Made by a program: the position numbers and the translations under genes. DNA of 64,000 nt from contig NZ_CP104900.1 of NCBI RefSeq assembly GCF_025449215.1, positions 4,650,001 through 4,714,000 of the forward strand, in the 5' to 3' direction. This document shows, piece by piece, positions 25,333 through 45,385 of the stretch. Each line of letters begins with the position of its first letter. The first letter of the stretch is position 1. The notes beneath the pieces are model-generated. The model was not told where the DNA came from. It worked only from the letters and a program-made list of their open reading frames with translations, and did no database searches. The DNA comes from Shewanella seohaensis (GTDB lineage Bacteria > Pseudomonadota > Gammaproteobacteria > Enterobacterales > Shewanellaceae).

Positions 25333-25592
25333 AGCATTTCCTTCAGAATTATATAGTTATTTTTTTACGCACAGAGGTGCGCTACTAGATATAACAAAAC
25401 TCCGCAAAAAAATGCGTACCATTATGTAACCTGAGCAAAACACAAATTAAACATTTAAGATTTTGTTGGCGACGGCGATAATTCTAGAAAAAACATAAAA
25501 ATACGCCGTAAATTCAACTTGTTCAGACTATTCTGCTAGAGTGTTGCAGATTAGGCATGGATAAAGCTCATCAGTCGGGCAAAGGAGTGGAT

Positions 25593-27985
25593 ATGAATCC
25601 GATAAATGCGGTCTGGAAACGTTGGCTATTGGCCCTAGTGTTAGCGGTCACGGGTTGTGCCAGCGTCGCCCAAGTGGATTTTGATAATCTTTATGGTAAA
25701 AGCTCGCCGCAGACGCGGGCCGACAATCAGTCAATCCAGAGTGAACTCACAGTAAAAACAAAGGCTTATCATTCGGCTGTTGAACCTATCATCAACAGTC
25801 GCTGCGTGGTTTGCCATGCCTGTTACGATGCGCCCTGCCAACTCAAAATGACCTCCAGTGAGGGCATTGAACGGGGCGCGAACAAGGAAAAAGTCTATCA
25901 GGGCACCCGCTTGGTGGCGGCAACACCGAATCGGTTATTTGTCGATGCCTACACACCTGAAGCATGGCGCGAACGCGGTTTTTATCCCGTGCTCAATGAG
26001 CGTACCCAAACCCCACAGGCCAATACACAGGCCTCAGTGCTGGCGCGGATGCTCACGCTAAAACAGGCCCATCCCCTGCCGGACACTAAACTGCTCGATA
26101 AAAGTTTCGACTTTAGCCTCGATCGGGTTCAGCAATGCGCCAGCATTGAGGAAATGGACAAATACGAGCAATACCAACCACTTGCGGGCATGCCCTACGG
26201 CTTGCCTGCGCTCAATCAGCAGGAACATAAGGTATTGATGCAATGGCTCGAACAGGGTGCAGTGTTGCCGACGCCACCAGCCCTCAGCGCCGAGTTTAAT
26301 CAAGAAATTGCCCGCTGGGAGCAGTTCTTAAACGCCGACAGCCTCAAGGCGCAACTGAGCGCCCGTTATATTTACGAGCACTTATTTGCCTTCCACCTGT
26401 ATTTTGAGTCATTAACCGCGGCCGATGCTCCTGCGGCTTACTTCGAGTTAGTGCGCTCACGCACGCCGCCGGGCAAACCGATTGATCTGATTGCCAGTCG
26501 CCGCCCCTTCGACGATCCACAAGTGTCGCGGGTGTATTACCGCTTTAAGCCCTATCACGCCACGATCGTCGATAAGACCCATATTCCCTACGCCTTAAAT
26601 AACACTGTGCTGCAAAACTGGCAGCAGTGGTTTATCGATGCCAAGTACCAAGTCAGCTCGCTGCCAAGCTATGCACCGAGCGTGGCGGCCAATCCCTTCG
26701 AGGCCTTTATTCAACTGCCCGCAGGCTCGCGTTATCGCTTTATGCTTACCCGCGCCCAAGACACTATTATGGGCTTTATCAAGGGGCCGGTTTGCCGTGG
26801 TCAGGTCGCCCTCAATGTGATCAACGATAGATTTTGGGTTTACTTTGTCACCCCAGAATATATGGACGACAGCGACTTTACCGACTTCTATCAGGGCCAA
26901 ATCGAGAACCTACGTATGCCCGCCGAGGAAGAAAGCACCGCCCTTGCCGTGACCTGGTGAAATACGCCGCCAAACAGGGCGAGTATATGCGGGCGCGAAA
27001 TCAGTTTTTAAATCATAAGTTTAAGAATGGTCGCCACCTTACTATCGATGGTTTATGGGACGGAGAAGGCAGTAATGATAATGCCAGCCTGACGGTATTT
27101 AGGCATTTCGATAATGCCACTGTGGTCAAAGGGTTAGTGGGAGAATCTCCTAAGACGGCTTGGGTGATCGACTATGCCCTGCTGGAGCGGATTCACTACC
27201 TCCTAGTCGCGGGTTTCGATGTGTATGGCAACTACGGCCACCAGCTACTCACCCGCCTGTATATGGATTTTTTACGGATGGAGGGCGAGTCTAACTTCTT
27301 GACCTTATTACCCCAAGAGGAGCGCCGTAAGCAGTTTAAAGACTGGTATCAGGATGCGGGCACCCAGCTAACCGCCTTTATTGCGGGGGATATTAATACC
27401 TTCAATCAACCCACAGGTGTGCTCTACTACACGGACGATCTTAAGGCCGAACTCTATCAAAAATTGGCCGCTAAGGTCGGCGAGGTTCAGCCCCAACGCT
27501 ATCAAATCGCACTCAGTCAGTTGCAACCTAACAGCAAGGCATTGTTGCAGGCGCTAGGCAGAGTTAAAGGCACGCAAGCGACCCTTTTGCCCGAGCTGAC
27601 GATGATTATGATTGAGCCTGAAAAAACGGGCAAAGCGGAAATCTTTACCTTAGTACGTAACAGTGCCCATCGAAATATTTCGAGCCTATTCAATGAGGAA
27701 AGCAACCGCGATCCCGCCAAGGATGATGTCACGCTAGTACGCGGGCTTTTGGGCAGTTACCCCGAAGCCTTCTGGCATATTAAGGAGCAGGACTTAGCCA
27801 AAGTTGTGGCAAAGGTCGAAGGTATGCAAACCGAAAAAGACTACGAAGCGTTATTGGATTTAGCGGCAGTGCGCCGTACCGATCCGCGTTTCTGGGCCTT
27901 TAGTGACAAACTCAACCAAGCCTTTTTCGACAGTCATCCGATTGAGAGCGGTTGGCTGGACTACAATCGACTGCAAAATCGCTAA
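25593..27985 (+). CDS. cti: Fatty acid cis/trans isomerase, frameshifted as given
   Basis: Two readings (ending at 26960 and at 27985) make one 797-residue protein if one G is added at the GG 26956-26957, joining ALAVTW to VKYAAKQGEYMRARNQ. The protein is an exported cytochrome-like enzyme that converts cis- to trans-unsaturated membrane fatty acids under solvent or heat stress. The heme motif CVVCH is at residues 71-75 (CVVCHACYDAPC), after a lipoprotein-like signal (LAVTGC). The family's long helical body fills the rest. AAAGGAG lies 5 nt before the ATG at 25593, so the earlier ATG at 25557 is rejected. Divergent from the S8 protease; the 260-bp spacer holds both promoters. Confidence 0.88.
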
Positions 27986-30407: not shown

Positions 30408-31691
30408 TTAAAGCTTAACTTGAGTGTACTGAGTCCAGGCCAGCAGTTGCCCCATTTGTGGGACTATCCACACCGCCGTGCCCTGATTTTGATAAACCCG
30501 ATAGTAAAACAGATCTTCATCGCGAATATCGTGCTTACGGATCGCGCGGTAAAACTGCATGGCAGAGCCACTCACCTCATCGGGTTTGGTGAGCTCCTTT
30601 TGCGACACTTTGACATGGAATACATCCACATTCAGATCATCAATTTGCGTTTGATACTGCTCAAACTCCCCACGGATAGTGTACTTAATCGGCGTGGTTA
30701 AACAGTCCTGATCGGTAATGCAGGAGGTGGAGTAAAACTTGCCCCGATTCTCCCCTTCGTACACCAGCGACATGCTGAGATCCGTGCGCACCAGCAGCTC
30801 GCCCGCCACAGGGAAATAGATATCCGCGTGGTAGTTATGCTCCAGCAGCTCCCCCGCCCCCTTGTCATCAATCGGCAGCACGATGCGGTTGTAGCGAATA
30901 CGCTCCTCCATCGTCTTACTCAGCGGGATAAACTCGGCCATGTTAAGGCCCGCCGGCGTTGCATCAATCGAGGTGATATTGATCATGCCCTTGCCGTTAC
31001 AATCCTTGGCATCGAGCGAGGGGCAAATGGCCATCGAATAGTTTTTACCATCCGTTGCGGCAAAGGCACTGAAATAAGGCAAGCCGCTGATATGGTTACC
31101 TTCTGGTGCTAAATGTTTTTGCCACCACGAGGGATGTAAATGTTCTTCATCGTCGATATACAGCACCTGTGCCGTGCCCAAGGTACCGCCAATATTGAGG
31201 CTGATATATTTATCGGCGTTCCATTTTGCCACCTGTTTGACCACGGCATGGTGATCGCTCCAGTACCACACAGAGATAAGGATTAACCCCAGCATCACGA
31301 TGCCCGCCAGTTTCGTCCACGCCGAGACACCGACAATGGCATCGCGGATCGCATCGGCGTCGTTAATCGCCAACATCTTCACATGGGACTGTTCGGACAC
31401 ATGCAACTGATAACCGCGGCGCGCCACTGTTTTGAGCTGCACTTCGGTATAAGGCTCTAATTTTTTACGTAAGGTACTGATGCACTGAGTTAATGAGGTA
31501 GGCGCGACCACACGTTCTGGCCAGCCGACTTGCAGCAATTCTTCCTTGGTAAAAATCGCGTTCGGGGCAGATAACAGCAATACAAGTACGGCGGTTTCTG
31601 AAAAAGTCAGGCCGATCTGGGTTCCATGAACATGGTCAACAAGCTCTTTGGCCTGTTCATCTAACATTAGGTATGAAGTGATTTTATGCAT
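30408..31691 (-). CDS. CadC/ToxR-like membrane-anchored winged-helix regulator
   Basis: A 427-residue protein. The N-terminal OmpR/PhoB-type winged helix (about 1-100) is clear: LTFSETAVLVLLLSAP, LLQVGWPERVVAPTSLTQCI, and TLRKKLEPYTEVQLKTVARR. One membrane helix follows (about 148-165, LAGIVMLGLILISVWYW), then a periplasmic domain of about 260 residues with two close Cys pairs (CPSLDAKDC, CITDQDC). This layout senses a periplasmic signal and binds DNA at the membrane. The target is unknown. I start at the ATG at 31691 because it places the helix-turn-helix at the very N-terminus; a start at 31748 adds a spurious hydrophobic segment. No adjacent gene is clearly its target. Confidence 0.8.
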   Translation of the reverse strand: MHKITSYLMLDEQAKELVDHVHGTQIGLTFSETAVLVLLLSAPNAIFTKEELLQVGWPERVVAPTSLTQCISTLRKKLEPYTEVQLKTVARRGYQLHVSEQSHVKMLAINDADAIRDAIVGVSAWTKLAGIVMLGLILISVWYWSDHHAVVKQVAKWNADKYISLNIGGTLGTAQVLYIDDEEHLHPSWWQKHLAPEGNHISGLPYFSAFAATDGKNYSMAICPSLDAKDCNGKGMINITSIDATPAGLNMAEFIPLSKTMEERIRYNRIVLPIDDKGAGELLEHNYHADIYFPVAGELLVRTDLSMSLVYEGENRGKFYSTSCITDQDCLTTPIKYTIRGEFEQYQTQIDDLNVDVFHVKVSQKELTKPDEVSGSAMQFYRAIRKHDIRDEDLFYYRVYQNQGTAVWIVPQMGQLLAWTQYTQVKL

Positions 31692-31904
31692 GTTAAGCGC
31701 CCAAACTAAGCCAACACAATAGACTATGATTGCGCTAACAACGGGCAAACACAGTGAAACTCAGTCTCACCCGAGAGCAACCGTGATTCCTAGCTACTAA
31801 ATCAAGAGGGTTTATTTTACTTCTTAACAACATAAAATACTGTGACCCTATACTCAGTTTACCCATTGTTTATAAAGCATAAATTTAAACTAATGCAGAA
31901 AAAA

Positions 31905-32792
31905 CTAAACCTCTTGCCTCGCAAAAATCCAGCAGGCTAGTAATCCTAAAAGCCCTATCCAAGTCGCCAGCATGGCGTACATCAGCACAGGCCCCATCCC
32001 CGTTTGGGCAATCAGGGCCAGACTACTCTTCGCCGACAGGGTATCGGCGGGATTGGCGAGCAGGTTCAAGGCACGGAAAAGATCGGTAGGATTAATTAAA
32101 ATCAATAGGTTAAATAGCTGGCGATTGAACACTTCCGCCAGACTCACCAGCGCCGTGAGTAGCACTAAGTCATAAACCAAGACCAGCACAAACCACAGTA
32201 GCAGTAATATGCCTAGGGCTTTGGCCTTTTCGCGCACACACAGACTCACGCAATAACCCAAAAGCACAAACACCAGCGACAGCAAAATACCGCTGCCAAT
32301 CAAATGGATAAACCCGATAATTAAGGCGTGTCTTAAGTGTTCGTCAACAAAGGTAAGCAGTAGTAATGCCGTCGCGCCAAACCCCATCATACAGGCTGCA
32401 ATCATCACATAGGCATGGCCGAGCAACTTGCCACACACCAAGTGCCAACGGGCCAAGGGATAGGTGAGTAGCAGCAATAGCGTGCCCGACTCACGCTCGC
32501 CAACAAAACTGTCGTAGCTGAGTAAAATCGCGCCCAAGGGCAAGATAAACACCGCCAGCGTGACTAAACCCGAGAAGATTTGTGCGCTCTCGAGCAGCAC
32601 TACAGTGCCCGACACGGCGCTGCCCATAAAGCTCACGCACAGGGACAAAATCAACAAGATACCCGCCATCAAACCTAGCCAACGGTTGCGTAAATTGTCC
32701 TTAAACTCTTTCACAGCAACGGCTTGAATCAGTGTTAGCGCCCGTGGAGGGCAATATTGGGCAGCTTCTTGCTCGATACTTATCTGACTCAT
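31905..32792 (-). CDS. nosY: NosY-like ABC transporter permease of the sirA operon
   Basis: A 295-residue ABC-2-type permease with six membrane helices and the family signature SYDSFVGERESGTLLLLLTY after helix 2. Its start overlaps the stop of the ATPase gene by four bases (ATGA). In nitrous oxide reductase systems NosDFY builds the copper site of NosZ. Here no nosZ is present in the window and the gene ends the sirA operon, so the same function is probably used for SirA. The symbol is by family. Confidence 0.85.
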   Translation of the reverse strand: MSQISIEQEAAQYCPPRALTLIQAVAVKEFKDNLRNRWLGLMAGILLILSLCVSFMGSAVSGTVVLLESAQIFSGLVTLAVFILPLGAILLSYDSFVGERESGTLLLLLTYPLARWHLVCGKLLGHAYVMIAACMMGFGATALLLLTFVDEHLRHALIIGFIHLIGSGILLSLVFVLLGYCVSLCVREKAKALGILLLLWFVLVLVYDLVLLTALVSLAEVFNRQLFNLLILINPTDLFRALNLLANPADTLSAKSSLALIAQTGMGPVLMYAMLATWIGLLGLLACWIFARQEV

Positions 32793-33835
32793 GCCACTAA
32801 CTCCCTTTGATCTTGCTCTTCTTCAACCGCCGAGCGCACGGTTGATGAATTAGGGCGATTCAGCCCTGCCATAAAGTGATGGAAAATATCCTGCAAGCTC
32901 GGTGGCGCAATGGAAAACTCATGGATTTTAAGGAGATGTAATTGCTCGATAACCTTGGGCTTAAGCGCATCGGGCACACTAAAGCACACGCTGTTTGCGC
33001 TTGAGTGATTCCGCATTGAGGCGAACAGTGGCAGAGCCATTAGCTGCTGATATTGCCAAGGCGAAACGCGGTGCAACTCAAGCTGACTTGGCAGCGCGCT
33101 GATTGCCCTAAGCTGCGATAAATCACCTGCGGCGAGCAGCCGACCTTGGCCTAAGATCAGCGCACTATCCATTTGATCTTGCACTAATCCTAACTCGTGG
33201 GTACTGATGATGATGGCGCAGCCCTGCGCCTTCAATTGCGCCATTTTCTGATATAAAAATGCCGATGCGAGGGGATCTAAGCCTACAGTCGGTTCATCCA
33301 GCAACAGCACCTTAGGATCGGCCAATACCGCCTGAGCTAATCCCAAACGTTGGCGCATGCCCTTGGAAAAGGTGCTTAGGCGTTTATCCTTGGCCGCCAT
33401 CAGGCCAAATTCTTCCAGCAAAATGGATATACGCTTGGGGGCAACACCCTTGAGTTTGGCTAAATAGCTTAAGATCTCCTGCGCCGTCATATTGTCATAA
33501 AAGCTCACATTTTCAGGCAAATAGCCTAATGAAAGGTTGGCGTTGGATCGCTTGGTATGCAGAGGTTGTCCCTGCACAAATAGCTCGCCATGGCTTGGGG
33601 AGACAAGGCCTAAGATCATTTTAATCAGGGTCGATTTACCCGCACCATTGTGGCCGAGTAGCGCTAAAGTTTGGCCTGCTTGCAGTTCAAAATGAAGATC
33701 CGTGAGCGCCTCAAATGTCGCATAACGCTTGCAAAGCCCGATGGCCTTAATCGCCACTTGCCCTTGGGATGAAGCCTCGTTTGTCATCAAGGTCAGCGCC
33801 TGTTTATGCTGTGCATCATTGCTGAAATGGCTCAT
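32789..33835 (-). CDS. nosF: NosF-like ABC transporter ATPase of the sirA operon
   Basis: A 348-residue ATPase with Walker A LLGHNGAGKSTLIKMIL, signature STFSKGMRQRLGLAQA and Walker B KVLLLDEPTVGLDP. It should pair with the NosY-like permease to energise NosD. The start at 33835 has GGAG 7 nt upstream and lies 20 bases inside the nosD end, so translation is coupled. The C-terminal part is about 80 residues longer than a minimal ABC ATPase. Confidence 0.88.
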   Translation of the reverse strand: MSHFSNDAQHKQALTLMTNEASSQGQVAIKAIGLCKRYATFEALTDLHFELQAGQTLALLGHNGAGKSTLIKMILGLVSPSHGELFVQGQPLHTKRSNANLSLGYLPENVSFYDNMTAQEILSYLAKLKGVAPKRISILLEEFGLMAAKDKRLSTFSKGMRQRLGLAQAVLADPKVLLLDEPTVGLDPLASAFLYQKMAQLKAQGCAIIISTHELGLVQDQMDSALILGQGRLLAAGDLSQLRAISALPSQLELHRVSPWQYQQLMALPLFASMRNHSSANSVCFSVPDALKPKVIEQLHLLKIHEFSIAPPSLQDIFHHFMAGLNRPNSSTVRSAVEEEQDQRELVA

Positions 33836-35105
33836 TGCCCATCTCCTCGGTTTTCCATCCCATTAAGGGAAAGCTGTCACTCACACCACTTGCACCCGTT
33901 GGCTGAAACTGCCGCTCCACCCAACGCAGCAGCAAGACCACAGGGCTTTCCATCAGCAGTTTCGCCTCGGGATAGAGCCAAAAGAGTTTGTCTAAGCTAT
34001 CGTTGGGCCGATGGGCGATATCCCCGACGCCGTCGCCATTAGTGTCCCAACCCTGATATTCGGACCAGTAATTGCCCTGCCCCTGATAACTCCACTCGAG
34101 TTGTGCCTCGCCAACGTATTTGACTTGGGTTTGGTTGGCTAAAATACGATTTTGCCAGAGGCGATTTGCTTCGCCGCCCATAGCCATGCTGATCCCAGTA
34201 TCGCTATGGCTAAACTCATTCGCCTCGATGCGATTATTCTGCGCGGCGTAGATAAAAATACCCTTGCCCTCGTTACCCAGCTCCAGCGAACCTTGGGGAT
34301 TGACCACCTCAGTCGCGATATTCGCCTGAATATGGGCATCGTTTGTGATATTGAGTAGAATGCCAAAGTCCCGCGCTTGGCTGACCTTGTTGTGGTGTAG
34401 AAAGATGTGCTGCGAGTTCATCAAGGCATAACCGCCATCGACGCTAATGGCTTGATTGTTTGAGGCCTCATCGCCTCGGGTGTACATGTAATGGATGCCG
34501 TATTGCAGCTTAGCGAATTGATTATGGTGGATTTGGCTGTCCGTCACCGACTCGAGATACACGCCATCGCGTACAAAAATAAAATGGTTATCTTGCACTT
34601 GGGGCGCACTCACATGCTTGAGAAAGACGCCGTCCCCCCTATCCAACACATAAATGGCACCATTGCCGCTGATGCAGTTTTCCGTAATGCGGGGCGCACT
34701 CAGCTGCTCGCCATAGATACCAAAGCCATCACCCACTAGCCGATTGCCCTTAATGAGCACTTCGTCAGCCCCCGCTTGCAGCAAGATCCCCGCATTCTGG
34801 TAATAGAGATCTCGCCCCCAGTGACGGATATTCAGCCCTTCGACTATCACCTTGGGCGCTGCAATGGTTAAGGCGCTACCTTGACGCAAAGCATCTAGGG
34901 TTGCCCCCGCTTCGCCCTTAAGATGAATCGCGCGGCTGACATTAAAATTGCCTTCGTAAACGGCGGTGGCGAGCACAACAGTGTCGCCATCCTGCGCCCG
35001 CGCGAGGGCTTGGGTTAGAGCCGCAGTATCCGTGACCCTAAACTCCTGCGCCAACCCAACGAGGGAGAAGCTACAGAGCCAGCCGAGGAGCAAGCAGCGC
35101 CACAT
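33816..35105 (-). CDS. nosD: NosD-like periplasmic copper-processing protein of the sirA operon
   Basis: A 429-residue exported protein with a signal peptide (LLLGWLCSFSLVGLAQ) and about ten right-handed beta-helix turns of the NosD/CASH type (for example GIYGEQLSAPRITENCISGN, NRIEANEFSHSDTGISMAMG). NosD is essential for copper-site assembly in nitrous oxide reductase. It lies 9 nt after nosL and overlaps nosF. Its presence in a sulfite reductase operon suggests copper loading of SirA. Confidence 0.88.
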   Translation of the reverse strand: MWRCLLLGWLCSFSLVGLAQEFRVTDTAALTQALARAQDGDTVVLATAVYEGNFNVSRAIHLKGEAGATLDALRQGSALTIAAPKVIVEGLNIRHWGRDLYYQNAGILLQAGADEVLIKGNRLVGDGFGIYGEQLSAPRITENCISGNGAIYVLDRGDGVFLKHVSAPQVQDNHFIFVRDGVYLESVTDSQIHHNQFAKLQYGIHYMYTRGDEASNNQAISVDGGYALMNSQHIFLHHNKVSQARDFGILLNITNDAHIQANIATEVVNPQGSLELGNEGKGIFIYAAQNNRIEANEFSHSDTGISMAMGGEANRLWQNRILANQTQVKYVGEAQLEWSYQGQGNYWSEYQGWDTNGDGVGDIAHRPNDSLDKLFWLYPEAKLLMESPVVLLLRWVERQFQPTGASGVSDSFPLMGWKTEEMGNEPFQQ

Positions 35106-35114
35106 AGCAATCGC

Positions 35115-35606
35115 CTACTTATCGCCGGCCAGTAATTCGAGGCTGATCTCATCGAATCGAAGCACGCGGCCACCGTATTCTTGAGCAAAGGCCTCGGCGG
35201 CGGCTTTAGTGCTAAAAGGTGCTACAGCAGGCCCCATCACGGCTTTTTTACTGGTGCCGTAGACATAAAACGCACTGGTGGCATCGATAAAGGCGCCATC
35301 GTCTGGCTGTTCCCAGTCGGTCGATGCGGCGTCATGCACCATCATGTACTCAATTTGTCTTTTGTTTTCAGGCTGTAGGGCAAAGTTAAACATATCGCGG
35401 CTGGAGCAAAACTTAGGCACCATCTTCTCGGCCTTCAAATGCACTTGCCCCTTAGGTCCAGGGTATTTAGTGATCACCATGCCGCAGAGATGGCAGCGGT
35501 CATGCTCGTGGATCATCTCGGCTTTATGTTGATGATCAGTGGCTTCACTCTTATTGCAACCCAATAACAAAGGAGCGGCTAGTAGCAAACTTAAGTACTT
35601 TTTCAT
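35115..35606 (-). CDS. nosL: NosL-like copper-binding lipoprotein of the sirA operon
   Basis: A 163-residue lipoprotein (LAAPLLLGC, Cys17) with the NosL motif CHLCGM (Cys38 and Cys41), which binds Cu(I) in characterised NosL proteins. A His-rich lead (DHQHKAEMIHEHDRCH) adds possible ligands. It probably hands copper to NosD or directly to SirA. The gene starts 119 nt after sirD on the same strand. Confidence 0.88.
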   Translation of the reverse strand: MKKYLSLLLAAPLLLGCNKSEATDHQHKAEMIHEHDRCHLCGMVITKYPGPKGQVHLKAEKMVPKFCSSRDMFNFALQPENKRQIEYMMVHDAASTDWEQPDDGAFIDATSAFYVYGTSKKAVMGPAVAPFSTKAAAEAFAQEYGGRVLRFDEISLELLAGDK

Positions 35607-35725
35607 CCTGTTATTCCTTGAAAAATATCAACGCCTCGCCAAGGCACCTTGCAGGGACAGACCTCTTGCGACGAGGGTTGATACAAAAATGGTTCTTAGC
35701 TCAGGCCCTTGGCCTTAGCTCTGGG

Positions 35726-36673
35726 TTAAATCGCGTAGTTTTGTCCCGCCAACAGGATGAAGAGTCGCAGGCACATCATGCCCACGACCGCGCACATGCC
35801 CGACATATAAAACGCTTTGGCCGAATGGCTAAAATGCTTACCCGTGGCGAAGTTAAGGAGCAGCGGCGCACCAAAACCGATACCGACCACACCAATCCAG
35901 AATACGCTTGCCCAGATCCCTTCTTGGAAGGCGGCAAAGGCAAACTGGCCTCCAGCATTGCCAGTTAACAGCGCGGTGGCGATCATAAAAATAAACAGGG
36001 CTTCGGCGAACATAATCGGCCACTCGGCACCGTGTAGGATCTTCATCTCGCCGCTGTGTAAAGGTTCTTTAAACAACCACACCGCCAGCATTTTGGCCGA
36101 GGCGCCGCCCGCTGAAAGCCCCGAAGCAATAAACAGCGCAGGCAATACCGAGGTGTTGATCAGCGGGAAGCGGATCAAGGCGGAGATTAAGAAGCCGGTG
36201 TAAGCACAGACGGATAACGCCAGTAATAACACCAGTGCTTCCATCGGGCGTCTAAAGCCCTTCAGCTTAGTGATGATGGGGCCGAGGAACTGCAATTGGG
36301 GAATGGCCATCAGCTCTTTTTCGAGGGCGAATAGCGCGACCACAGCCACTAACGGGATATACACCGACAGGGCAATCACACCAATCGACATCACAGAATT
36401 TAAGTTGTAGAACACCAAAATTCGCCAGAAGAATAAGGGGTTAGTCAGGTCGAGCACCAGACACAACATCCCTAAACTGATAGTGACAAACGACAGTAGA
36501 GTCGCCGCTTTTAAGAAGGCGGTATTTTCAACCTGACCTAAGTAAAACCGCAGCGCCAGCGCAATGGTTAGCGCCCCGCCCGAGATGCCCGCGAAGAACA
36601 AATACACCGCAATCGGCCAAGGCCAAGCGACGCCTTGGGAGAGGCCTAAGGTAAATTCCATACTGGTATCCAT
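35726..36673 (-). CDS. sirD: NrfD-type membrane quinol dehydrogenase subunit SirD
   Basis: A 315-residue polytopic protein with about nine to ten membrane helices and the NrfD/PsrC family start (AWPWPIAVYLFFAGISGGAL). It should oxidise menaquinol and pass electrons to the FeS protein SirC. It begins two nucleotides after sirC, so translation is coupled. The name follows the S. oneidensis sir cluster. Confidence 0.9.
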   Translation of the reverse strand: MDTSMEFTLGLSQGVAWPWPIAVYLFFAGISGGALTIALALRFYLGQVENTAFLKAATLLSFVTISLGMLCLVLDLTNPLFFWRILVFYNLNSVMSIGVIALSVYIPLVAVVALFALEKELMAIPQLQFLGPIITKLKGFRRPMEALVLLLALSVCAYTGFLISALIRFPLINTSVLPALFIASGLSAGGASAKMLAVWLFKEPLHSGEMKILHGAEWPIMFAEALFIFMIATALLTGNAGGQFAFAAFQEGIWASVFWIGVVGIGFGAPLLLNFATGKHFSHSAKAFYMSGMCAVVGMMCLRLFILLAGQNYAI

Positions 36674-36675
36674 AT

Positions 36676-37383
36676 TTACACTCCCAGTTTGACGATTGGT
36701 ATGTAACGTAAGCTCGGCTCGGTGCCAAACTGCGGCTTAATCCGCACTGAATCTTTTACCGCTAAGAGTTTGCTTACGTAGGATTGAGGATCGTTGGCAT
36801 CACCGAAGATCAGCGCATCGTATTTACAGCTCTGCACACAGGCGGGCAATTCGCCCTTGGCTAACTTGCTGTTCAAACAGAAATCGCAGTTATCGGCCAC
36901 ATCGGTATCGCTGTTGATGTAGCGGGCGTTGTAAGGACAAGCCCCAATGCAGTATTTACAGCCGGCGCATTTGCTCGCATCCATAGTCACAATGCCGGTT
37001 TTCGCATCGCGGTGCGCCGCGCCCGTAGGGCAAACGGTCACACAGGGGGCGTTCTTGCATTGCTGGCAGGAAACCCGCACAAACTTACGTTCACAGTCAC
37101 AACTCATCTTGCCGCAGTGTGGACAAGGCTGACCTTCGACACGGCCACTCTGCTGCTCGAGCAACACCCGTGACTTGCCTTCGGGCAACTGGTTGGCTTG
37201 ATTACAGGCGGTTTTACAGTCGCCACAGCCGACACACTTGTTTTGGTCAAAGACCATGACGTAATGGGGCTTATGGGCGCCGTCGGACTCTTCTTTGACC
37301 GAACACCCGGCTAAAGGCGTTAACATCAAAGAGCACATGCCAGCGCTTTTAAGGAACCTCCGTCTCTCTATATTTTCACTCAC
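36676..37383 (-). CDS. sirC: Ferredoxin-type iron-sulfur electron-transfer protein SirC
   Basis: A 235-residue NrfC-like protein with a twin-arginine signal (ERRRFLKSAGM) and four Cys clusters for [4Fe-4S] binding: CVGCGDC/C, CQQCKNAPC, CAGCKYCIGACPYNA and CDFC/C. It carries electrons from SirD to SirA in the periplasm. GTG at 37383 with GGAGG 5 nt upstream is a better start than ATG at 37395, whose upstream sequence is poor. An extra Cys-rich insert (CPHCGKMSCDC) sits between the first and second cluster. Confidence 0.9.
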   Translation of the reverse strand: MSENIERRRFLKSAGMCSLMLTPLAGCSVKEESDGAHKPHYVMVFDQNKCVGCGDCKTACNQANQLPEGKSRVLLEQQSGRVEGQPCPHCGKMSCDCERKFVRVSCQQCKNAPCVTVCPTGAAHRDAKTGIVTMDASKCAGCKYCIGACPYNARYINSDTDVADNCDFCLNSKLAKGELPACVQSCKYDALIFGDANDPQSYVSKLLAVKDSVRIKPQFGTEPSLRYIPIVKLGV

Positions 37384-37469
37384 AACATCCTCCATCTATC
37401 GGTTTTATACCGACGTTTTTATTTATATCGTTATCGTTCCAACATGCCTGAAAGTGGCTAGCGACTTGA

Positions 37470-38144
37470 TTAATATCCACTTTCATTCAATTTGCTTTGG
37501 GCCTTGCCGATGGCGTTTAACAGGGCCTCACGATTAATCTCTGCCCTTGGCTGCGCCAACAATGCTTGCCAATGGTCTATCGCCTCTTGGTAGCGCCCAT
37601 GGAGATAGGCATCGTTGGCCTGTAGCATCCGCGTCTGCGGCTCAAAGGGCGCGAGCGCCAAGATCTGTGCAATCAGTGCTTGGGTCTCTGCGGTCATTTG
37701 CCGACCATCGCGGTAATAGAGGGCATTGGCCTTAGCGCCGAGCACCTCTGCATCCTCCCCCACCAAGGCAAGCAGTTTGTCTAGGGTCTGCACCGCATCA
37801 GCATATAAGCCTCCCGCGCTGTAAGCCTCGGCAAGCGCCTGTAATGCCAACGGGTTTTGCGGTTGTTCATCCACGAGGCGCAGGGCTTTGGTGATGTCGG
37901 CAGCCACTAAATAGTCAATGTTTTCATCGAGCTTGCCTGTGTTCCAATCCTGATAACGCCCCGTTTGGCTATAGATGGCGAGCGTGAGCAATAGCAGAAG
38001 CACACTGCACAACACAGGCACGCCATGGGAGACTTGAGACTCTCCCACCAGCGTTTGCCGTTGGTTTAAACGTGCGTGCTGCCAGAAAATCCAAGCCACA
38101 AACCCGCTTAATAGGAGTGCTATGGTGAATCCTAAACTTGCCAT
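37470..38144 (-). CDS. TPR protein, CcmI/NrfG-like cytochrome c maturation factor
   Basis: A 224-residue protein with two N-terminal membrane helices (LGFTIALLLSGFVAWIFW and VLCSVLLLLLTLAIYSQ) and TPR repeats from about 95 onward (LALQALAEAYSAGGLYADAV). This layout is that of CcmI/NrfG, which recruits apocytochromes to the heme lyase. It likely brings apo-SirA, whose CX15CH site is non-standard, to the SirE/F/G complex. Confidence 0.8.
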   Translation of the reverse strand: MASLGFTIALLLSGFVAWIFWQHARLNQRQTLVGESQVSHGVPVLCSVLLLLLTLAIYSQTGRYQDWNTGKLDENIDYLVAADITKALRLVDEQPQNPLALQALAEAYSAGGLYADAVQTLDKLLALVGEDAEVLGAKANALYYRDGRQMTAETQALIAQILALAPFEPQTRMLQANDAYLHGRYQEAIDHWQALLAQPRAEINREALLNAIGKAQSKLNESGY

Positions 38145-38208
38145 GCCTTACCTCGACGCTCGCCTATCCAAGTTCATCACTCACTGAACCTAAGCCAATG
38201 TTTAGCCC

Positions 38209-38988
38209 TTAGTGGGCTGGCATCATGCCCATCATGCGGGCTTCTTTTTTCTCGCTGGGCTTTTCGATATTTTTCAGTTCGATTTCAAAAATTAAGGTGG
38301 ATTGCGGCGGGATTTCACCGACAAATTCATTGCCGTAGGCCAGCTCTGCCGGGATTACAAAACGGTATTTAGAGCCCATAGGCATGAGTTTTAAGCCCTC
38401 TTCCCAACCAGGGATCACTGTCATCAGGGCGAAACGTGTGGGTTCCTCACGGCCAACGGTGTTTTCAAACTCGGTGCCATCGATAAGCTTGCCGACGTAC
38501 TCGACGGTGACCACATCCTCTGGGTTGGGCTTATTGCCTGTACCTTGAGTTAACACTTCGTATTGCAGGCCTGACTCTGTAACGGTTACGCCTGATTTCT
38601 TCTTATTTTCAGCAAGATATGCTTCACCTGCCTTAGTGTTTTCCGCAGCGAGCTTCTCGGCGTTAGCCTTTCTCACTTGGTTTAACTCTTCGGCGCGTTG
38701 GTTTAGATAGGTCAGCACTTCTTCATCGGTTAATTGCTGCTGCTTTTTCAGCGCATCGACAAAGCCCTGCACCACTAAGTCCACATTCACCTCGGCGCCC
38801 AGTTCGACTTGGTTATAAATCTGGCCAGAAATGTAGTTACCTACAGAGGCGCCGATGCTGTAGGACGCTTTATCCGCATCGGTTTTAAGCGTTGGGGCAG
38901 CAAAGCTCGCCATAGAGACAAACAATGCAGCGCAGGTCGCCACTGTGAGGGTTTTTGGGATAAAAGAAGTTGGCATAGATATTTTCAT
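38209..38988 (-). CDS. FKBP-type peptidyl-prolyl cis/trans isomerase of the sir operon
   Basis: A 259-residue exported FkpA-like protein: signal peptide, an N-terminal helical dimerisation region (about 35-145), a long coiled helix (AEELNQVRKANAEKLAAENT), and the FKBP domain (GLQYEVLTQGTGNKPNPEDV ... YGNEFVGEIPPQSTLIFEIE). It ends in a Met-rich tail (ARMMGMMPAH) that could bind copper, an inference only. It likely assists folding of SirA or the copper factors. Start at 38988 gives a normal signal peptide. Confidence 0.88.
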   Translation of the reverse strand: MKISMPTSFIPKTLTVATCAALFVSMASFAAPTLKTDADKASYSIGASVGNYISGQIYNQVELGAEVNVDLVVQGFVDALKKQQQLTDEEVLTYLNQRAEELNQVRKANAEKLAAENTKAGEAYLAENKKKSGVTVTESGLQYEVLTQGTGNKPNPEDVVTVEYVGKLIDGTEFENTVGREEPTRFALMTVIPGWEEGLKLMPMGSKYRFVIPAELAYGNEFVGEIPPQSTLIFEIELKNIEKPSEKKEARMMGMMPAH

Positions 38989-39081
38989 TTTATGTTCTCT
39001 ACAATTTAGCCCTTGGGCTTTAGTGCTTTAGCCGAAAACGTATGGGTAACCCCATAACCGATTAAAATATTTATTTGATTA

Positions 39082-39522
39082 CTATGGTTTTTCTGTTGTT
39101 CTGCCTGACATACGCCAGCCGAAGATGCCATCGGCCATATGGCGCACACCTGTGTAACCTAGCTTCATGGTTTCCCGTGCGGCCATGTTGCTGGCGGTGC
39201 AAAGACGGTTGGCGCAATAGAACACCATCACAGCGTCTTTATTCTTTGGCAGTAGCTCTCGCCAATTCTGCACATTGAAAAACACCGCTCCGGGGATAAA
39301 ACCATCCGCCCAGATTTCCAGCGTGTTTACATCGAAAAAATACACCCCGGGCTTGCCGACTAAGGTTTCGGCTTCCCGCATGGAAATCGGATTCAACTGA
39401 ATTTCGTTATAGGGCGCCTCGGAGATCTCAGAGCCCCCACCAGCCGCGACGGGTAAACTCATACCCCCTAGGCCCAGTGCCAGTAAGCCGCCTAACAGGC
39501 TGTGTCGAATCGCTTTATTCAT
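39082..39522 (-). CDS. Periplasmic rhodanese-like protein of the sir operon
   Basis: A 146-residue exported protein with a signal peptide and one rhodanese domain. The active-site loop reads YCANRLCTA, with two cysteines, rather than the usual single catalytic Cys plus CRxG-type loop. In a sulfite pathway a sulfur-transferase or sulfur-handling role is plausible. I place the start at 39522, downstream of GAGG; a longer reading from 39549 begins inside an inter-gene hairpin. Confidence 0.83.
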   Translation of the reverse strand: MNKAIRHSLLGGLLALGLGGMSLPVAAGGGSEISEAPYNEIQLNPISMREAETLVGKPGVYFFDVNTLEIWADGFIPGAVFFNVQNWRELLPKNKDAVMVFYCANRLCTASNMAARETMKLGYTGVRHMADGIFGWRMSGRTTEKP

Positions 39523-39540
39523 CATTTGGCCTCGTATAGC

Positions 39541-39562
39541 CCCCGACACTCGCGTGTCGGGG
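39541..39562 (-). promoter_or_regulatory. GC-rich hairpin between sirA and the rhodanese gene
   Basis: A perfect 9-bp stem CCCCGACAC / GTGTCGGGG with loop TCGC begins 21 nt past the sirA stop. There is no T-run after it, and the operon continues, so it may be a partial terminator or a 3' stabiliser that keeps sirA mRNA more abundant than downstream genes. Confidence 0.5.
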
Positions 39563-39583
39563 ACAAGTTAGACTCGAGTCGAA

Positions 39584-41716
39584 CTACATTTTCTGTGCGC
39601 TCAGGCCGTTGCCATCGATAATGGCTTGGGCTTGAGTGACATAGGTCAAAGCAGCGTCGAGACGTTTCAGTGAGTAACGTGGACCATGGACACCCCATGA
39701 GCCGTCAGCCTTGATCAGGCGAACAACGTCTTGGGCTTTGTCGGTCAACATCAACACTTGAGTCTTGTCTTCTACCGACAGCTTGGTGACTTCTAACAGC
39801 TTGTCGATACGGGCAAGGGCTTGTTCTACTTGAGCAAAAGTATCCTTAACGGGTTTTTGCCACTTTTGAACTTCGCCGTAGATTTCCAGCTGATCTTCGA
39901 AGTGCAGGCCGACTTCTAGCTCAGATTGGAACTGGCTATGACAACCTTTGTTATCCACCACATCATGGTCTGAGGCCGATGTACGGGCACAGGTCCACAT
40001 CAGGTCGAGGTAGTTGTAGCCGTTCTCGTCTTTCGCCACAGTCCAGCCCTTAGTGGTCGCATCGCGAGACTTGCCTTCAGGTGGGTTGAGGGTCTTACGC
40101 AGTGGGTCGACATCAATCTTCCACATGTGTGACTTACGTACGTTGTCGAAGCCCGCCATATCTGGGAATTGGATCGCCGTGAAGTTTTCACAACTTCCCA
40201 TGTTTGGCATGTGGCAGCTTTGGCAAGTTTGATTGCTGTGGGTGTTAGTGTTCTTGGCGATCTCGGCTTGGGCCGTGTGACAGTCAGTACACTCTTTGAT
40301 AATTTTTGGCTTAGTCATACCCGTAGTCCAATCACCGTCGGTGACTTCGTGCGGATCGTGACAGGTTGAACAACGCATGCCTTTGTCATAGTGCGCTGAG
40401 GCAAACATTTGCGAACCTTCAGTACCACAGGATGGGCAAGATGACTTCATCTTCACGTTGAAGGCATATTCCAGCTTTTCTTTACCCTGTGGCGTATCGG
40501 CTAACTCTTCAACAAAGTTAAAGCGTTGGTGACAACGTTCACAGTTAGATGGCATGCCGCCACCGATACCACCGTCTAAGTGGCCGCCCGCACCGTGACA
40601 CTCTTCACAGGTAATCCCTTTGGCAATAGTGTGCTTTTGCAGCTCTTTCGGGTTACCTAAAGCCGCGAAAAATTCATCTTTGGTTTGGAAGTCAAACTTA
40701 AAGGTGTGGCACATTTCGCAATAGGAGCTAGCCGGTTGGAACAGGAATTCCTTCTCATACTTAGCACCGTATGAACTCATACCCCATTGGTGTGAACCGC
40801 TGGTACCGAAGTCTTCCATTTTGACGGGGAAGCTTGGGATAGCTTTGTTGATTTTGGCTGCCATTTCAGGGGTTAACCACTCAGCCCAACCACGGGAGAA
40901 CTGGTTACCACCGGCGACCATAGTTCCAGTGCCATCCTTCAACAGACCGTCTTTCACGTGGTAAGTACCGCGCACTAGGTAGGCGTCAATAAAGCCATAT
41001 TTAGTCCGTGGCGTACCCACTGTCGCGTAGATAGCATCTGGCGTAATACCCGATGGCAGAATCGAGGTATCCTTAGTGCCATACATGGTTTTCTTCAGGT
41101 CGTTATCGACCTCAGGGTGCTCGCCAGGGAAGCGAATCGTCTTAGAGTGGCGTGAACGTCTCCACTTCTCGTATTGCGGACCATGACACTCACCGCATTT
41201 TTCTGGGCCGACAAACTTGTTCGGGAAATCTAAAATCGATTTCGCCCCTAAACGGTATTGCAGTGCCTTAGGACGCTGGCCATCGTTATAGGAGCTGTAA
41301 CGCACTGCGGTGCCATCAGTGGGGTTCACTTCTTTACTGTGTTTGCTGTAAGCAACACTGTCACCACCGTGCAAATATTCTTCACCACGGTCACTGACTT
41401 TATAAGTGCCCTTTAATCGACCTTCAGCGTCGTATTTAAAAACTGGGTGATTTTCAAATAGAAAATCAAACAATTCTTGCTCTTGAACAATATAATCCTG
41501 CAGTGTTTTCACACCGCGGGATTTCTCCATTAAATTTTCATTTAAATTGGGGTTAGCCAGAATATCTTGAGTATAGTGGGATTGTTGTTTATTACCCACT
41601 CCAGGTACCACTTTCCCCTCCGACTTAGCATCGGCAGCGACTGTGGTAGCGCTTACGGCAGAACCTAAACAAAATAGCACGCTTAATGCTACTTTGGATT
41701 TCCATCGCTTCATCAT
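39584..41716 (-). CDS. sirA: Octaheme cytochrome c dissimilatory sulfite reductase SirA (MccA family)
   Basis: A 710-residue exported octaheme cytochrome that reduces sulfite to sulfide in six-electron respiration. Signal peptide ([19 protein letters not shown]), then seven CXXCH hemes (174-178, 333-337, 370-374, 392-396, 449-453, 476-480, 498-502) and an eighth site of CX15CH type, Cys576 to Cys592-His593 ([18 protein letters not shown]). This eight-site set defines SirA/MccA. Extra cysteines at 427, 430 and 509 are free of heme motifs; in the MccA family two cysteines bind the active-site copper, and these are the candidates. It heads a nine-gene downstream operon on the minus strand, with divergent sirE/F/G. 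Confidence 0.96.
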
Positions 41717-42260: not shown

Positions 42261-44300
42261 ATGATAAGTATGTCCCCAGAAATAGGTCACCTATTGCTCA
42301 TCATAAGTACTGTGTTGGCATTATTCTCCGCAATCACTCACTTTATTGGCACTCATCAGCCACAACTTTATTTAATCGAGTTCGGCAATAAATTATTTAA
42401 TGCCATGTTTATAAGCTTATTGGGCGCACTCTTATGCCTTATTTATAGCTTTATTAGCGATGACTTTTCGGTTGCCTATGTGGCGAACCATTCCAATAGC
42501 CAACTCGCCCTCGGTTATAAAATTGCCGCAGTCTGGGGCAGCCATGAAGGCTCTATGCTGTTTTGGGTGTTCGCCATCGCGTTATGGGGTGCCATCATCA
42601 ATTGCCGCCAAGCGGGTAAATTCGTCGACTTAGATAACGCCGATGTGCAGACTGATAAAGCCTACTTTGCACGGCTACTGGCGATTCTCGCGCTCGTTAT
42701 CCTCGGCTTTAATCTGTTTTTACTCTTTACCTCCAATCCCTTTGCCCGATTACTACCTAACATCCCCATTGAAGGGCGCGACCTCAATCCGATATTGCAG
42801 GACATTGGCCTCATACTGCACCCACCTATGCTGTTTTTAGGCTATGTCGGGCTGACGGTATGCTTTGCCGCGGCGCTGTCATCCCTACTGGGTGGCGCAT
42901 TAGTGCATCGTCACCTCGAATACTTGCGGCCTTGGGTATTACTGGCGTGGATTTTCCTCACGGGAGGCAATGCCTTTGGTTCTTGGTGGGCCTATAACGA
43001 ATTGGGTTGGGGTGGTTGGTGGTTTTGGGATCCCGTTGAAAATGCTTCTTTTATTCCTTGGCTAGTCGCCACAGCGCTGGTGCATTCTTTAGTGCTGACC
43101 AGAAAGACCCAAGGCTTTGCCCTCACCACGCTATTTTTGTGCATCTTGGCATTCTCGCTGAGCTTACTCGGCAGCTTTTTGGTGCGTTCCGGCATAGTGC
43201 AATCGGTACATGCCTTCGCGGCGGATCCCACCAGAGGCATGTCAATCCTATGTTTATTGGTGCTGTTTGTCGGTGCGGCGCTGCTGATTTTTGCGCTCAA
43301 AGCCCAAGCCTTGAAGCATGAGGTAAGCCCTAGCCTATTGAGCAAAGAGACACTGTTACTGCTTGGCATCATAGTACTGGTGGTTGCAGCCTTTTCCGTT
43401 CTGTTGGGCACCTTTTATCCCCTGCTATACGAGTTGTTAGGCTTAGGCACTCTGTCGGTCGGCGCCCCTTACTTTAATGCGATTTTTGTCCCACTGACCT
43501 TTATCGCGGTGATGCTAATGGGCATAGCGCCGTTAATTGCTTGGGGACAATCGCGCGGCAAGCCACTCAAGGTATTAGCCTTGCCTTTTATCGCCATTGT
43601 GATTATCGCGGCGCTAATGAGTTATCAAACCCAAACCGATGGAGCTCTCTTCCTATTCCTTGGCTGCGCCAGCGCGTTGTTTTTGCTCTGCTGTCTTGGG
43701 GTGAGTGTAACAGTGACATCCCAAGCATTGACGCCACCTAAGCCCGCCATATCGACAACATCAAAGCGCGCCAGATTAGCCATGCTAGTCGGCCATTTGG
43801 GTGTGGCGGTCAGCATTATCGGCGCGACCTCAGTATCGTTTTTCGAGCAGGAAGCCTTGCTGCGTATGGGGCCTGGCCAAGGTAAACCACTTGCCGATTA
43901 TGTACTGGTCTACGAAAGCACAGAACCTGTAGAAACCCCAAGTTTTAGCGCGATTCAAGCCAATATCAGTATCCGCGCAGCCAAGCAGGATGACGTAGTG
44001 CTGGGTTACCTCCATCCACAGCGACAAACCTTTCATAGCAATGGCATGGAAGTGTCCCATGCGGGTATAGACCATGGTTTTTGGCGGGATCTCTATGTCT
44101 CTATGGGGCTACAACTGAGCGACACCGAATACCTGATCCGCATTAGCTATAAGCCCTTGGCGACCTGGATTTGGCTGGGTGCTTTATTGATGATGCTTGC
44201 GGGCGCGATTGCCGCTTGGCCAATCAAACAAGGCCACAGAGTCGCACAAACAAAGGCGCTGAATGTAAGTCGCTCACCACAGGAGACAATGACGTTATGA
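42261..44300 (+). CDS. sirE: CcmF/NrfE-like heme lyase SirE of the sir locus
   Basis: A 679-residue polytopic heme-handling protein with about fourteen membrane helices. It carries the heme-binding WWD motif (GWGGWWFWDPVENASFIPWL, about 250-268) and the CcmF-type WGSHEGSMLFW segment (92-102). A dedicated lyase is expected because SirA has a CX15CH heme that the general Ccm system may not process. AGGAAA precedes the ATG. The symbol follows the S. oneidensis sir cluster naming. Confidence 0.9.
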   Translation: MISMSPEIGHLLLIISTVLALFSAITHFIGTHQPQLYLIEFGNKLFNAMFISLLGALLCLIYSFISDDFSVAYVANHSNSQLALGYKIAAVWGSHEGSMLFWVFAIALWGAIINCRQAGKFVDLDNADVQTDKAYFARLLAILALVILGFNLFLLFTSNPFARLLPNIPIEGRDLNPILQDIGLILHPPMLFLGYVGLTVCFAAALSSLLGGALVHRHLEYLRPWVLLAWIFLTGGNAFGSWWAYNELGWGGWWFWDPVENASFIPWLVATALVHSLVLTRKTQGFALTTLFLCILAFSLSLLGSFLVRSGIVQSVHAFAADPTRGMSILCLLVLFVGAALLIFALKAQALKHEVSPSLLSKETLLLLGIIVLVVAAFSVLLGTFYPLLYELLGLGTLSVGAPYFNAIFVPLTFIAVMLMGIAPLIAWGQSRGKPLKVLALPFIAIVIIAALMSYQTQTDGALFLFLGCASALFLLCCLGVSVTVTSQALTPPKPAISTTSKRARLAMLVGHLGVAVSIIGATSVSFFEQEALLRMGPGQGKPLADYVLVYESTEPVETPSFSAIQANISIRAAKQDDVVLGYLHPQRQTFHSNGMEVSHAGIDHGFWRDLYVSMGLQLSDTEYLIRISYKPLATWIWLGALLMMLAGAIAAWPIKQGHRVAQTKALNVSRSPQETMTL

Positions 44301-44731
44301 ACCCACTGTTTCGCTCGCCCTATTTGAGCCTGTTGTTTTGGTTGCTGTCGCTGAGCCTCTGCTTTGGCGGCGCGACGTTTCTCGCCACGGCGCAGGAGGC
44401 CCCCAACCTTGGCGCCTCCTATCAACAGCAAGCCATAGAGATCAGCAAAGTGCTGCGCTGCCCCATGGCGACTAATCAAACCTTATTTGAATCGCAAGCA
44501 CCGATTGCCCATGAGCTGAAAGGACAAATCTTTTCACTTTTGGAACAAGGCTATAAGCGGGATGAGATCCTCGATTTTATGGTGCAGCGCTATGGCGAAA
44601 AAATCCGTTATCAGCCCGAATTTAAGTCCGCCACACTGGCACTCTGGCTCGGCCCGCTCGTGCTGTTAGCCGCAGGATTTGGCTTAGGGTTTGCGCTGTT
44701 AAAGCGCAGGCCACAAGTCCCAAACGCATAG
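44297..44731 (+). CDS. sirF: CcmH/NrfF-like maturation protein SirF with an altered CXXC
   Basis: A 144-residue protein with an N-terminal membrane segment, a periplasmic three-helix bundle and a C-terminal membrane helix, as in NrfF/CcmH. Its ATG overlaps the sirE stop (ATGA). The usual redox motif LRCxxCxNQ reads LRCPMATNQ: Cys55 is present but the second cysteine is Ala58. It can no longer form an internal disulfide but could still make a mixed disulfide with apocytochrome. The rest (QTLFESQAPIAHELKGQIF, GEKIRYQPEF) is well conserved. Confidence 0.88.
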   Translation: MNPLFRSPYLSLLFWLLSLSLCFGGATFLATAQEAPNLGASYQQQAIEISKVLRCPMATNQTLFESQAPIAHELKGQIFSLLEQGYKRDEILDFMVQRYGEKIRYQPEFKSATLALWLGPLVLLAAGFGLGFALLKRRPQVPNA

Positions 44732-44801: not shown

Positions 44802-45385
44802 ATGAAATCTTACATCGCCAAGCTCGCTCTCCTTTGCACCGCATGGCTGCTGTGCTGCGCCGTTCAGGCCCATTCACTGCAAAACAAACTCTATGACACG
44901 GGTGAGCCCATCCCTAAACCCAGAGTCATGACCGGCTTTATCGAGATGCAGCATGCCCGCGGCGTGCCCGAAGTGCCTTTTATCGATGAAGCTGGGCAGA
45001 CACACAGCTTAAAACAACACCAAGGCAAACTGACCTTAGTGAATCTGTGGGCGACTTGGTGCGTGCCCTGCTTACGGGAAATTCCAGAGCTGCAAAAACT
45101 CCAGCAACAATATGTCGATAAGAACATCGCCATAGTGCCCATCTCGATTGATGAAGAAGTAAAAGATGTACGGCCATTTTTGGATCAGCATGGCTTTAGC
45201 AACTACCGCACTTGGCTCGACCCAGAAAAAACATCGAGCAGATCATCCCTGCCAACGTTGTCCCTGCGACCTATGTTTTTGATGCTAAAGGCAACCTAGT
45301 CGGTTTTGTCCGTGGCTATCTCGATTGGACCGATAAAGAGGTTGCGCCCTATTTAGATAAGCTTATCGCCAAATATGCCCAGTAA
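44802..45385 (+). CDS. sirG: DsbE/CcmG-like thioredoxin SirG of the sir locus, frameshifted as given
   Basis: A 194-residue exported thioredoxin-fold protein once repaired. Signal peptide, then FIEMQHARGVPEVPFIDE and the redox motif WCVPC (Cys87, Cys90). The frame breaks in the A6 run 45226-45231; one more A gives EKNIEQIIPANVVPATYVFD, with the cis-Pro, and the tail ending KLIAKYAQ. It should keep apo-SirA heme cysteines reduced. It lies 70 nt after sirF. As given, translation ends early at 45299. Confidence 0.88.

Follow-up and report, generated by a model that had tools for sequence, protein, structure and literature searches.

A probable copper-maturation cassette for the octaheme sulfite reductase SirA in the sir operon of Shewanella

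The closest described relative of the system analyzed here is the NosDFYL machinery of nitrous oxide reductase, represented by PDB entries 7o0y and 7osf, which we take to be Pseudomonas stutzeri proteins. Our analysis concerns a window of 64,000 nucleotides from Shewanella seohaensis (contig NZ_CP104900.1, positions 4,650,001 to 4,714,000), in which four proteins homologous to NosL, NosD, NosF and NosY over most of their length are encoded in the operon of SirA, an octaheme c-type sulfite reductase of the MccA family. In common with the nosZ-associated type, the window proteins have the CXXCXM motif of NosL, the ATPase motifs of NosF and 50 positions of NosD; unlike it, the set sits in a sir operon, starts with nosL, has a NosD that falls in a clade of its own, and resides in a genome negative for nosZ. 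An initial annotation of the window had placed nosL-nosD-nosF-nosY behind sirC-sirD on the sirA strand, and we confirmed the coordinates, the strand and the identities of the genes. Based on gene content and sequence comparison, we consider it quite probable that this cassette is a copper-maturation machine dedicated to SirA.

A second point of comparison is provided by the mcc clusters of the Helicobacter order, with their Wolinella-like MccA. Here the same order of MccA/SirA, FKBP-type isomerase, iron–sulfur protein and NrfD recurs, followed later by NosL and an ABC transporter. In contrast to the sir locus, where the haem lyase is of the CcmF type and divergently encoded, the mcc clusters have a haem lyase of the CcsA/ResB type and a Sel1-repeat protein encoded between NrfD and NosL. 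The NosL protein of these clusters is mostly two-domain, the transporter is FtsX-type, and neither NosD nor NosY was seen in the flanks that were opened. A 2019 study in Wolinella of MccR, MccC, MccD and MccL reportedly treats MccL as a putative copper chaperone.

Within Shewanella, the sir cluster of S. oneidensis MR-1 (SO_0476-SO_0488) carries the same nos genes alongside the sulfite genes. The pertinent passages of the literature count nosL (SO0485) and nosY (SO0488) with the sulfite genes (PMC5955497), name SO_0486 nosD in an expression table (PMC7784907), and call the operon sirAIGCDJKLM (PMC6976685); the words nos and copper are absent from the main text of the last paper, and its passages on the operon give no role for the last four genes. 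In S. putrefaciens T2.3D-1.1, nosDFYL without nosZ was noted as curious; the respective tags, 04146-04149, lie close to one sirA (04142), and the passages concerned draw no link between the two (PMC9415397). Elsewhere, MccA is listed as a copper enzyme, and NosL and NosDFY are named for NosZ, in the passages of PMC7558416 on these proteins. The occurrence of nos genes in the sir locus, and of nosDFYL without nosZ in a Shewanella, is already in print, and a proposal concerning SirA and copper was not met in those passages. A literature search covering top-listed titles, the beginnings of abstracts and individual passages, with key subscription papers lying outside it, returned no link between NosLDFY and the copper of SirA.

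Distribution, conserved residues and descent of the cassette

That nosZ is lacking beside the set had been noted from the window, and the observation extends to the whole host genome, a single Shewanella contig of 4.75 Mb: profile searches with TIGR04244 and TIGR04246 returned no match there, and the same searches succeed in relatives. The former model, applied to all 129 Shewanella genomes, detected NosZ over its cut-off in 12, and weak matches confined to about the last 60 model positions in seven more; the latter was applied to 43 genomes. In other NosD-bearing gammaproteobacterial genomes, nosZ was found by these models in 37 of 39, a few of them as fragments. PF18764 (nos_propeller), tried as a NosZ probe, matched neither the host genome nor any of 14 controls and was replaced by the two TIGR models.

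NosD scores over the cut-off in 78 of the 129 Shewanella genomes, and a full or long SirA is present in 73. The two are tightly associated: NosD is found in 66 of the 67 genomes that have SirA but no NosZ, in all six with NosZ only, in all six with both enzymes, and in none of the 50 with neither, which speaks against a general copper role. All six genomes with both enzymes hold one NosD adjoining each, and the number of NosD genes equals the sum of SirA and NosZ copies in 124 of the 129 genomes. Among 103 NosD genes, 88 lie on the same strand as a SirA at a distance of 2.5-5.4 kb, 12 lie beside nosZ, and three are on contigs without either. The SirA counts rest on the 96 best rows, down to 981.9 bits, among them the SirA of G025 and G104, each interrupted or truncated. 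The counts leave out an additional G055 copy split into two rows (790 + 439 bits), smaller G025 and G104 pieces (at most 180 bits) and all remaining rows, which score below 47 bits. Under a phylogenetic control, using a gyrB tree of 127 genomes, 115 of them nosZ-less, 18 independent SirA contrasts were obtained (median p 7.6e-6), and NosD matched SirA in 17.9 of these 18 (mean over 200 pairings), with no opposite cases.

Gene neighborhoods were compared in 76 SirA loci, 44 from Shewanella and Ferrimonas and 32 from outside these genera, which derive from 80 of 169 confirmed matches. Relatives less similar to the Helicobacter query are under-sampled in this set, and its named loci overlap in species with the 129 genomes, so that the two samples are non-independent. 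Downstream of SirA in the 44 Shewanella and Ferrimonas loci, NosL is encoded in 41 and each of NosD, NosF and NosY in 40, a rate of 40/42 among loci with at least 9.5 kb of downstream sequence; two of the four NosD misses fall on short contigs (L091, L108), and two are genuine (L087, L111). NosL accompanies NosD in every one of the 40 loci that have NosD, and the rhodanese SirB stands behind SirA in 43 of the 44. Six clusters are without sirC and sirD, yet their sirA-B-I-G-nosL-D-F-Y remains; the cassette therefore goes with sirA rather than with the quinol module. Among duplicated SirA copies that come without a second NosDFY set, three have a NosL of their own (G020, G028, G085) and three have none (one in G109 and, in L082 and L084, the copy lying upstream). 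The nosL gene in the sir cluster of Shewanella sp. ANA-3 (L104:15883-16372) is split over two frames in this record.

The residues expected of copper handling are retained. Window NosL has a lipobox cysteine (C17), the CXXCXM motif (C38-M43) and a second conserved methionine (M124), all of which at least 95% of the Sir-linked and nosZ-linked rows retain; the CXXCXM motif itself is present in 44/44 Sir-linked and 11/11 nosZ-linked NosL proteins. For the CXM part of this motif, the cysteine is described as a likely and the methionine as a proposed Cu(I) ligand in the relevant passages of PMC6530538. In the NosF alignment, the Walker A, signature and Walker B motifs are retained. On the side of the putative client, C430 and C509 of SirA correspond in the alignment to C411 and C507 of the 4rkm chain, the presumed copper ligands, and 80 of the 81 SirA rows aligned contain both cysteines, the remaining one being a fragment. 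In another alignment, of 25 proteins, P0063 is without the stretch containing the first of them.

Where does the sir-linked set come from? A tree built by a quick method without bootstrap, comprising 103 NosD proteins and containing several long branches, groups all 44 Sir-linked proteins in one clade (Shimodaira–Hasegawa-like approximate likelihood ratio support, SH-aLRT, 100), whose sister is a group of 12 nosZ-linked Shewanella NosD proteins (SH-aLRT 97); the 47 other NosD proteins fall outside. The nearest relative of window NosD from a named source is that of Shewanella sp. ANA-3 (96%). Window NosLDFY is 39-45% identical to three nosZ-linked Shewanella sets. The gene orders also differ, with a gene of ~720 codons, nosZ, nosD, nosF, nosY and mostly nosL in Shewanella nos clusters, and nosL, nosD, nosF, nosY in the sir operon. 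In view of this tree, the identities and the differing order, the most likely origin is that a nos cassette was copied and re-assigned to SirA. The NosD tree would put the copying early in the history of the Shewanella/Ferrimonas group, where the cassette would have come to lie behind sirA. Among the loci examined, this copied form of a known machine was seen only in Shewanella and Ferrimonas.

Seven further loci (L197, L199, L200, L204, L207, L212, L213) contain gammaproteobacterial NosD-family genes that form a separate clade and have no clear Nos partners by eye; most of these genomes also carry nosZ. Given their placement in another clade of the NosD tree and the lack of a clear partner, they were set aside as candidate helpers of further enzymes.

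A dedicated role and its alternatives

We propose the following model for the loading of SirA. The NosL lipoprotein would hold Cu(I) in its CXXCXM site, as the properties of its family suggest, and would pass it to the periplasmic beta-helix protein NosD. Driven by the ATP-powered NosF–NosY transporter, NosD would dock on SirA, in analogy to NosDFYL, and would deliver one Cu(I) to C430 and C509 beside the active-site haem. Haem attachment to SirA is a branch apart; according to passages of PMC6976685, maturation of SirA in S. oneidensis requires SirEF, SirG and CcmI. Copper loading dedicated to SirA, as the initial annotation had suggested, is well supported by comparative evidence from gene content and fits the data best because in the 129 Shewanella genomes NosD occurs only with SirA or NosZ and stands beside each enzyme where both are present, because Sir-type NosD forms its own clade and its partners retain their copper and ATPase residues, and because other copper-type factors lie near SirA or MccA elsewhere.

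Three other explanations deserve consideration. The cassette may be a passenger: what is left of a nos cluster that has since disappeared, or a periplasmic set for handling copper in general whose place in the sir operon is accidental. The sister relationship between Sir-type NosD and the Shewanella nosZ type, together with the presence of nosZ in 12 of the 129 genomes, would agree with such a history. We consider it unlikely, however, since none of the 50 genomes without both enzymes has kept a NosD, the six two-enzyme genomes keep one beside each enzyme, the functional residues of the Sir-type proteins are retained, and nosL comes first in sir operons but last, where found, in nos clusters. 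It is also conceivable, though quite unlikely in our view, that NosDFY transports sulfur species instead of copper for the assembly or protection of SirA: an older proposal, given in passages of PMC6530538, has NosDFY supply sulfide for CuZ assembly, and the almost invariable rhodanese SirB would suit a sulfur pathway. The retention of the Cu(I) chaperone NosL alongside NosD in all loci having the latter argues against sulfur as the cargo, as does the placement of copper-type factors (NosL, Sco1) near SirA in other groups. Nor is the copper site of MccA known to contain inorganic sulfide.

A broader function, in which NosLDFY boosts copper supply to several periplasmic enzymes including SirA, appears very unlikely. 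Passages of PMC6530538 do indicate that CuA, too, may receive copper from NosL when copper is limiting, but a general supply should benefit most of the 129 genomes, and 51 of them are without NosD over the cut-off, 50 of these being without SirA and NosZ as well.

A number of observations weigh against, or narrow, a machine dedicated to SirA. Comparison of operon order across sirA genomes, proposed in the initial annotation, bears out the arrangement in 40 of the 44 Shewanella and Ferrimonas loci and in none of the 32 others, some of which are on short contigs; these come from Campylobacter, Helicobacter, Mucispirillum, Edwardsiella, Leminorella, Budvicia, Sutterella, Acidobacteriota and relatives of Geobacteraceae. 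In the 31 genomes that hold these loci, NosD exceeds the cut-off in two, both with a Sec-type nosZ, and 29 are without it; NosL is present in 10 (the same NosD and NosL searches took in two Ferrimonas genomes besides). Most SirA proteins outside the group, with their cysteines kept, thus appear to manage without NosDFY, which makes it less likely that the enzyme generally requires NosDFY. Exceptions also exist inside the group. The SirA of Ferrimonas marina (L111) is divergent, and its genome has neither NosL nor NosD over the cut-off; in L087 and at the second SirA of G109 no cassette adjoins the enzyme gene, another copy in the genome having one; and G104, the lone exception among the SirA-only genomes, has a SirA fragment on a 3.5 kb contig and no NosD.

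Other points concern the strength of individual lines of evidence. Because the cassette and sirA share an operon, deletion of one block could account for part of their co-occurrence. The tree of 92 NosL domains agrees with that of NosD, with weak support for the Sir group (78) and the nosZ group (72). Residues C411 and C507 of 4rkm are presumably the published MccA copper ligands C399 and C495, at a constant offset of 12. A SirA relative in the 25-protein alignment, P0062, is without the second presumed copper cysteine. Lastly, a terminator-like site (35648-35630) lies in the gap between sirD and nosL. P0062 originates from an uncultured Parasutterella sp. and, judging from its alignment, is possibly a copper-free form.

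The sir-nos locus in the window

All ten genes between 31905 and 41716 are open and on the minus strand, in the order sirA, sirB, sirI, sirG, sirC, sirD, nosL, nosD, nosF, nosY, followed by a ToxR-like gene (Table 1). SirA resembles MccA over its full length (residues 8-701 of 710 relative to 4rkm_A) and has seven CXXCH haem motifs and one CX15CH motif. For each of the four Nos proteins, the best or only PDB match is a protein of the solved NosDFYL complex. The regulator gene corresponds to sirR by position and kind; in S. oneidensis, SirR belongs to the ToxR family and is required for sirA expression, as stated in passages of PMC6976685.

Table 1. Genes of the sir-nos locus, with the matches that identify them
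Product	Coordinates	Strand	Supporting match
ToxR-like regulator, SirR by position and kind	30408..31748	-	PF00486, 50.7 bits
NosY-type ABC permease	31905..32792	-	PF12679; sole PDB match NosY 7o0y_D, E 1.7e-45
NosF-type ABC ATPase	32789..33835	-	PF00005; top PDB match NosF 7o0y_B, E 2.5e-62
NosD-type beta-helix protein	33816..35105	-	TIGR04247, 376.7 bits (cut-off 300); PDB 7o0y_A, E 6e-90
NosL-type Cu(I) lipoprotein	35115..35606	-	PF05573, 162.8 bits (cut-off 24); PDB 7osf_H, E 8e-41
SirD, NrfD-like membrane subunit	35726..36673	-	PF03916, 200 bits
SirC, 4Fe-4S protein	36676..37395	-	PF13247; top NCBIfam match NrfC, below cut-off
SirG, TPR protein like NrfG/CcmI	37470..38144	-	NF007692, 72 bits, and PF23914, 28 bits, both below cut-off
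SirI, FKBP-type peptidyl-prolyl isomerase	38209..38988	-	PF00254, PF01346
SirB, rhodanese-like	39082..39549	-	PF00581, 38 bits (cut-off 22)
SirA, octaheme c sulfite reductase, MccA family	39584..41716	-	4rkm_A (MccA), E 7e-227
SirE, CcmF-type haem lyase, divergent	42261..44300	+	PF16327, PF01578
SirF, CcmH-like	44171..44731	+	PF03918
SirH, thioredoxin-like	44802..45299	+	PF00578

The four nos genes had been described as overlapping. This is correct for nosD/nosF, which share 20 bases for the chosen start codon, and for nosF/nosY, which share 4; nosL and nosD are separated by 9 bases, and sirD and nosL by 119. A site scan detected no sigma-70-like site on the minus strand in the 119-base gap. 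In the region as a whole, promoter matches are at chance (11 versus 11.8 expected), and terminator-like matches exceed it (19 versus 11.8, standard deviation 3.3), many of them being intragenic.

The C-terminus of SirH is out of frame relative to its relatives, giving 165 residues as opposed to 194-197 in four Shewanella. Elsewhere in the window, a fatty acid cis/trans isomerase (CTI) is encoded in two overlapping frames, each matching one half of the Pfam model (25557-27985, plus strand), and a subtilisin-like protease, assigned to its family by eye, extends over three successive frames, as if twice broken (20388-25332, minus strand). The broken protease, CTI and SirH genes may reflect indel errors in the assembly or real decay.

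Copper-type factors at other SirA and MccA loci

Within four genes behind SirA, six of the 32 loci outside Shewanella and Ferrimonas encode a copper-type factor, either Sco1 or NosL. Sco1/SenC (PF02630) is found in L045, L049, L050, L069 and L075, and NosL (PF05573) in L073 and L075. A protein of 152 residues precedes Sco1 in L045, L049 and L050, and the copies of L045 and L049 have no Pfam match.

A search of 398 genomes from the order that includes Helicobacter brantae detected MccA in 52, and 20 of the 52 flanks were opened by choice, 19 from the 36 rows with at least 938 bits and one from the 16 lower ones. Behind the mcc genes, 17 of these 20 flanks (L343-L359) encode a NosL-family protein; of the other three, two stop short and the third belongs to a different type. 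An FtsX-type permease, belonging to one cluster, comes next in 15 of the 17, and an ABC ATPase follows in 11. Two CXXCXM motifs are present in 15 of the NosL proteins and one in the remaining two, one of which is cut by the end of the stretch. The mcc clusters thus have a recurrent tail of NosL, mostly with two domains, an FtsX-type permease and, where the stretch reaches far enough, an ABC ATPase; families were checked against Pfam with one member each of the permease and ATPase clusters and two of the NosL cluster. A combination of NosL and an FtsX-type permease also occurs in one Holophagaceae locus. The variety of copper-type factors at these loci is the main new observation, copper delivery being their presumed function.

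We read the different kits at SirA and MccA loci as probably doing the same job. Octaheme sulfite reductases may have recruited copper modules repeatedly. In Shewanella and Ferrimonas the module would be NosLDFY; in the Helicobacter order it would be a NosL, mostly of the tandem-domain kind, combined with an FtsX-type ABC transporter; and loci of Helicobacter, Mucispirillum, Geobacteraceae and Holophagaceae would use Sco1, in one case alongside NosL. NosL with an ABC machine might then be a general copper-insertion kit with an exchangeable transporter and clients beyond NosZ. We regard this reading as a whole as about as likely as not.

If SirA is indeed the client of the sir-linked cassette, the Nos machine can serve a structurally unrelated enzyme with a single Cu(I) site, and the question of how MccA and SirA acquire their copper would become readily approachable by genetics. 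It would also call for caution in metagenomics, as the detection of nosD, nosF, nosY or nosL would be no proof of N2O reduction.

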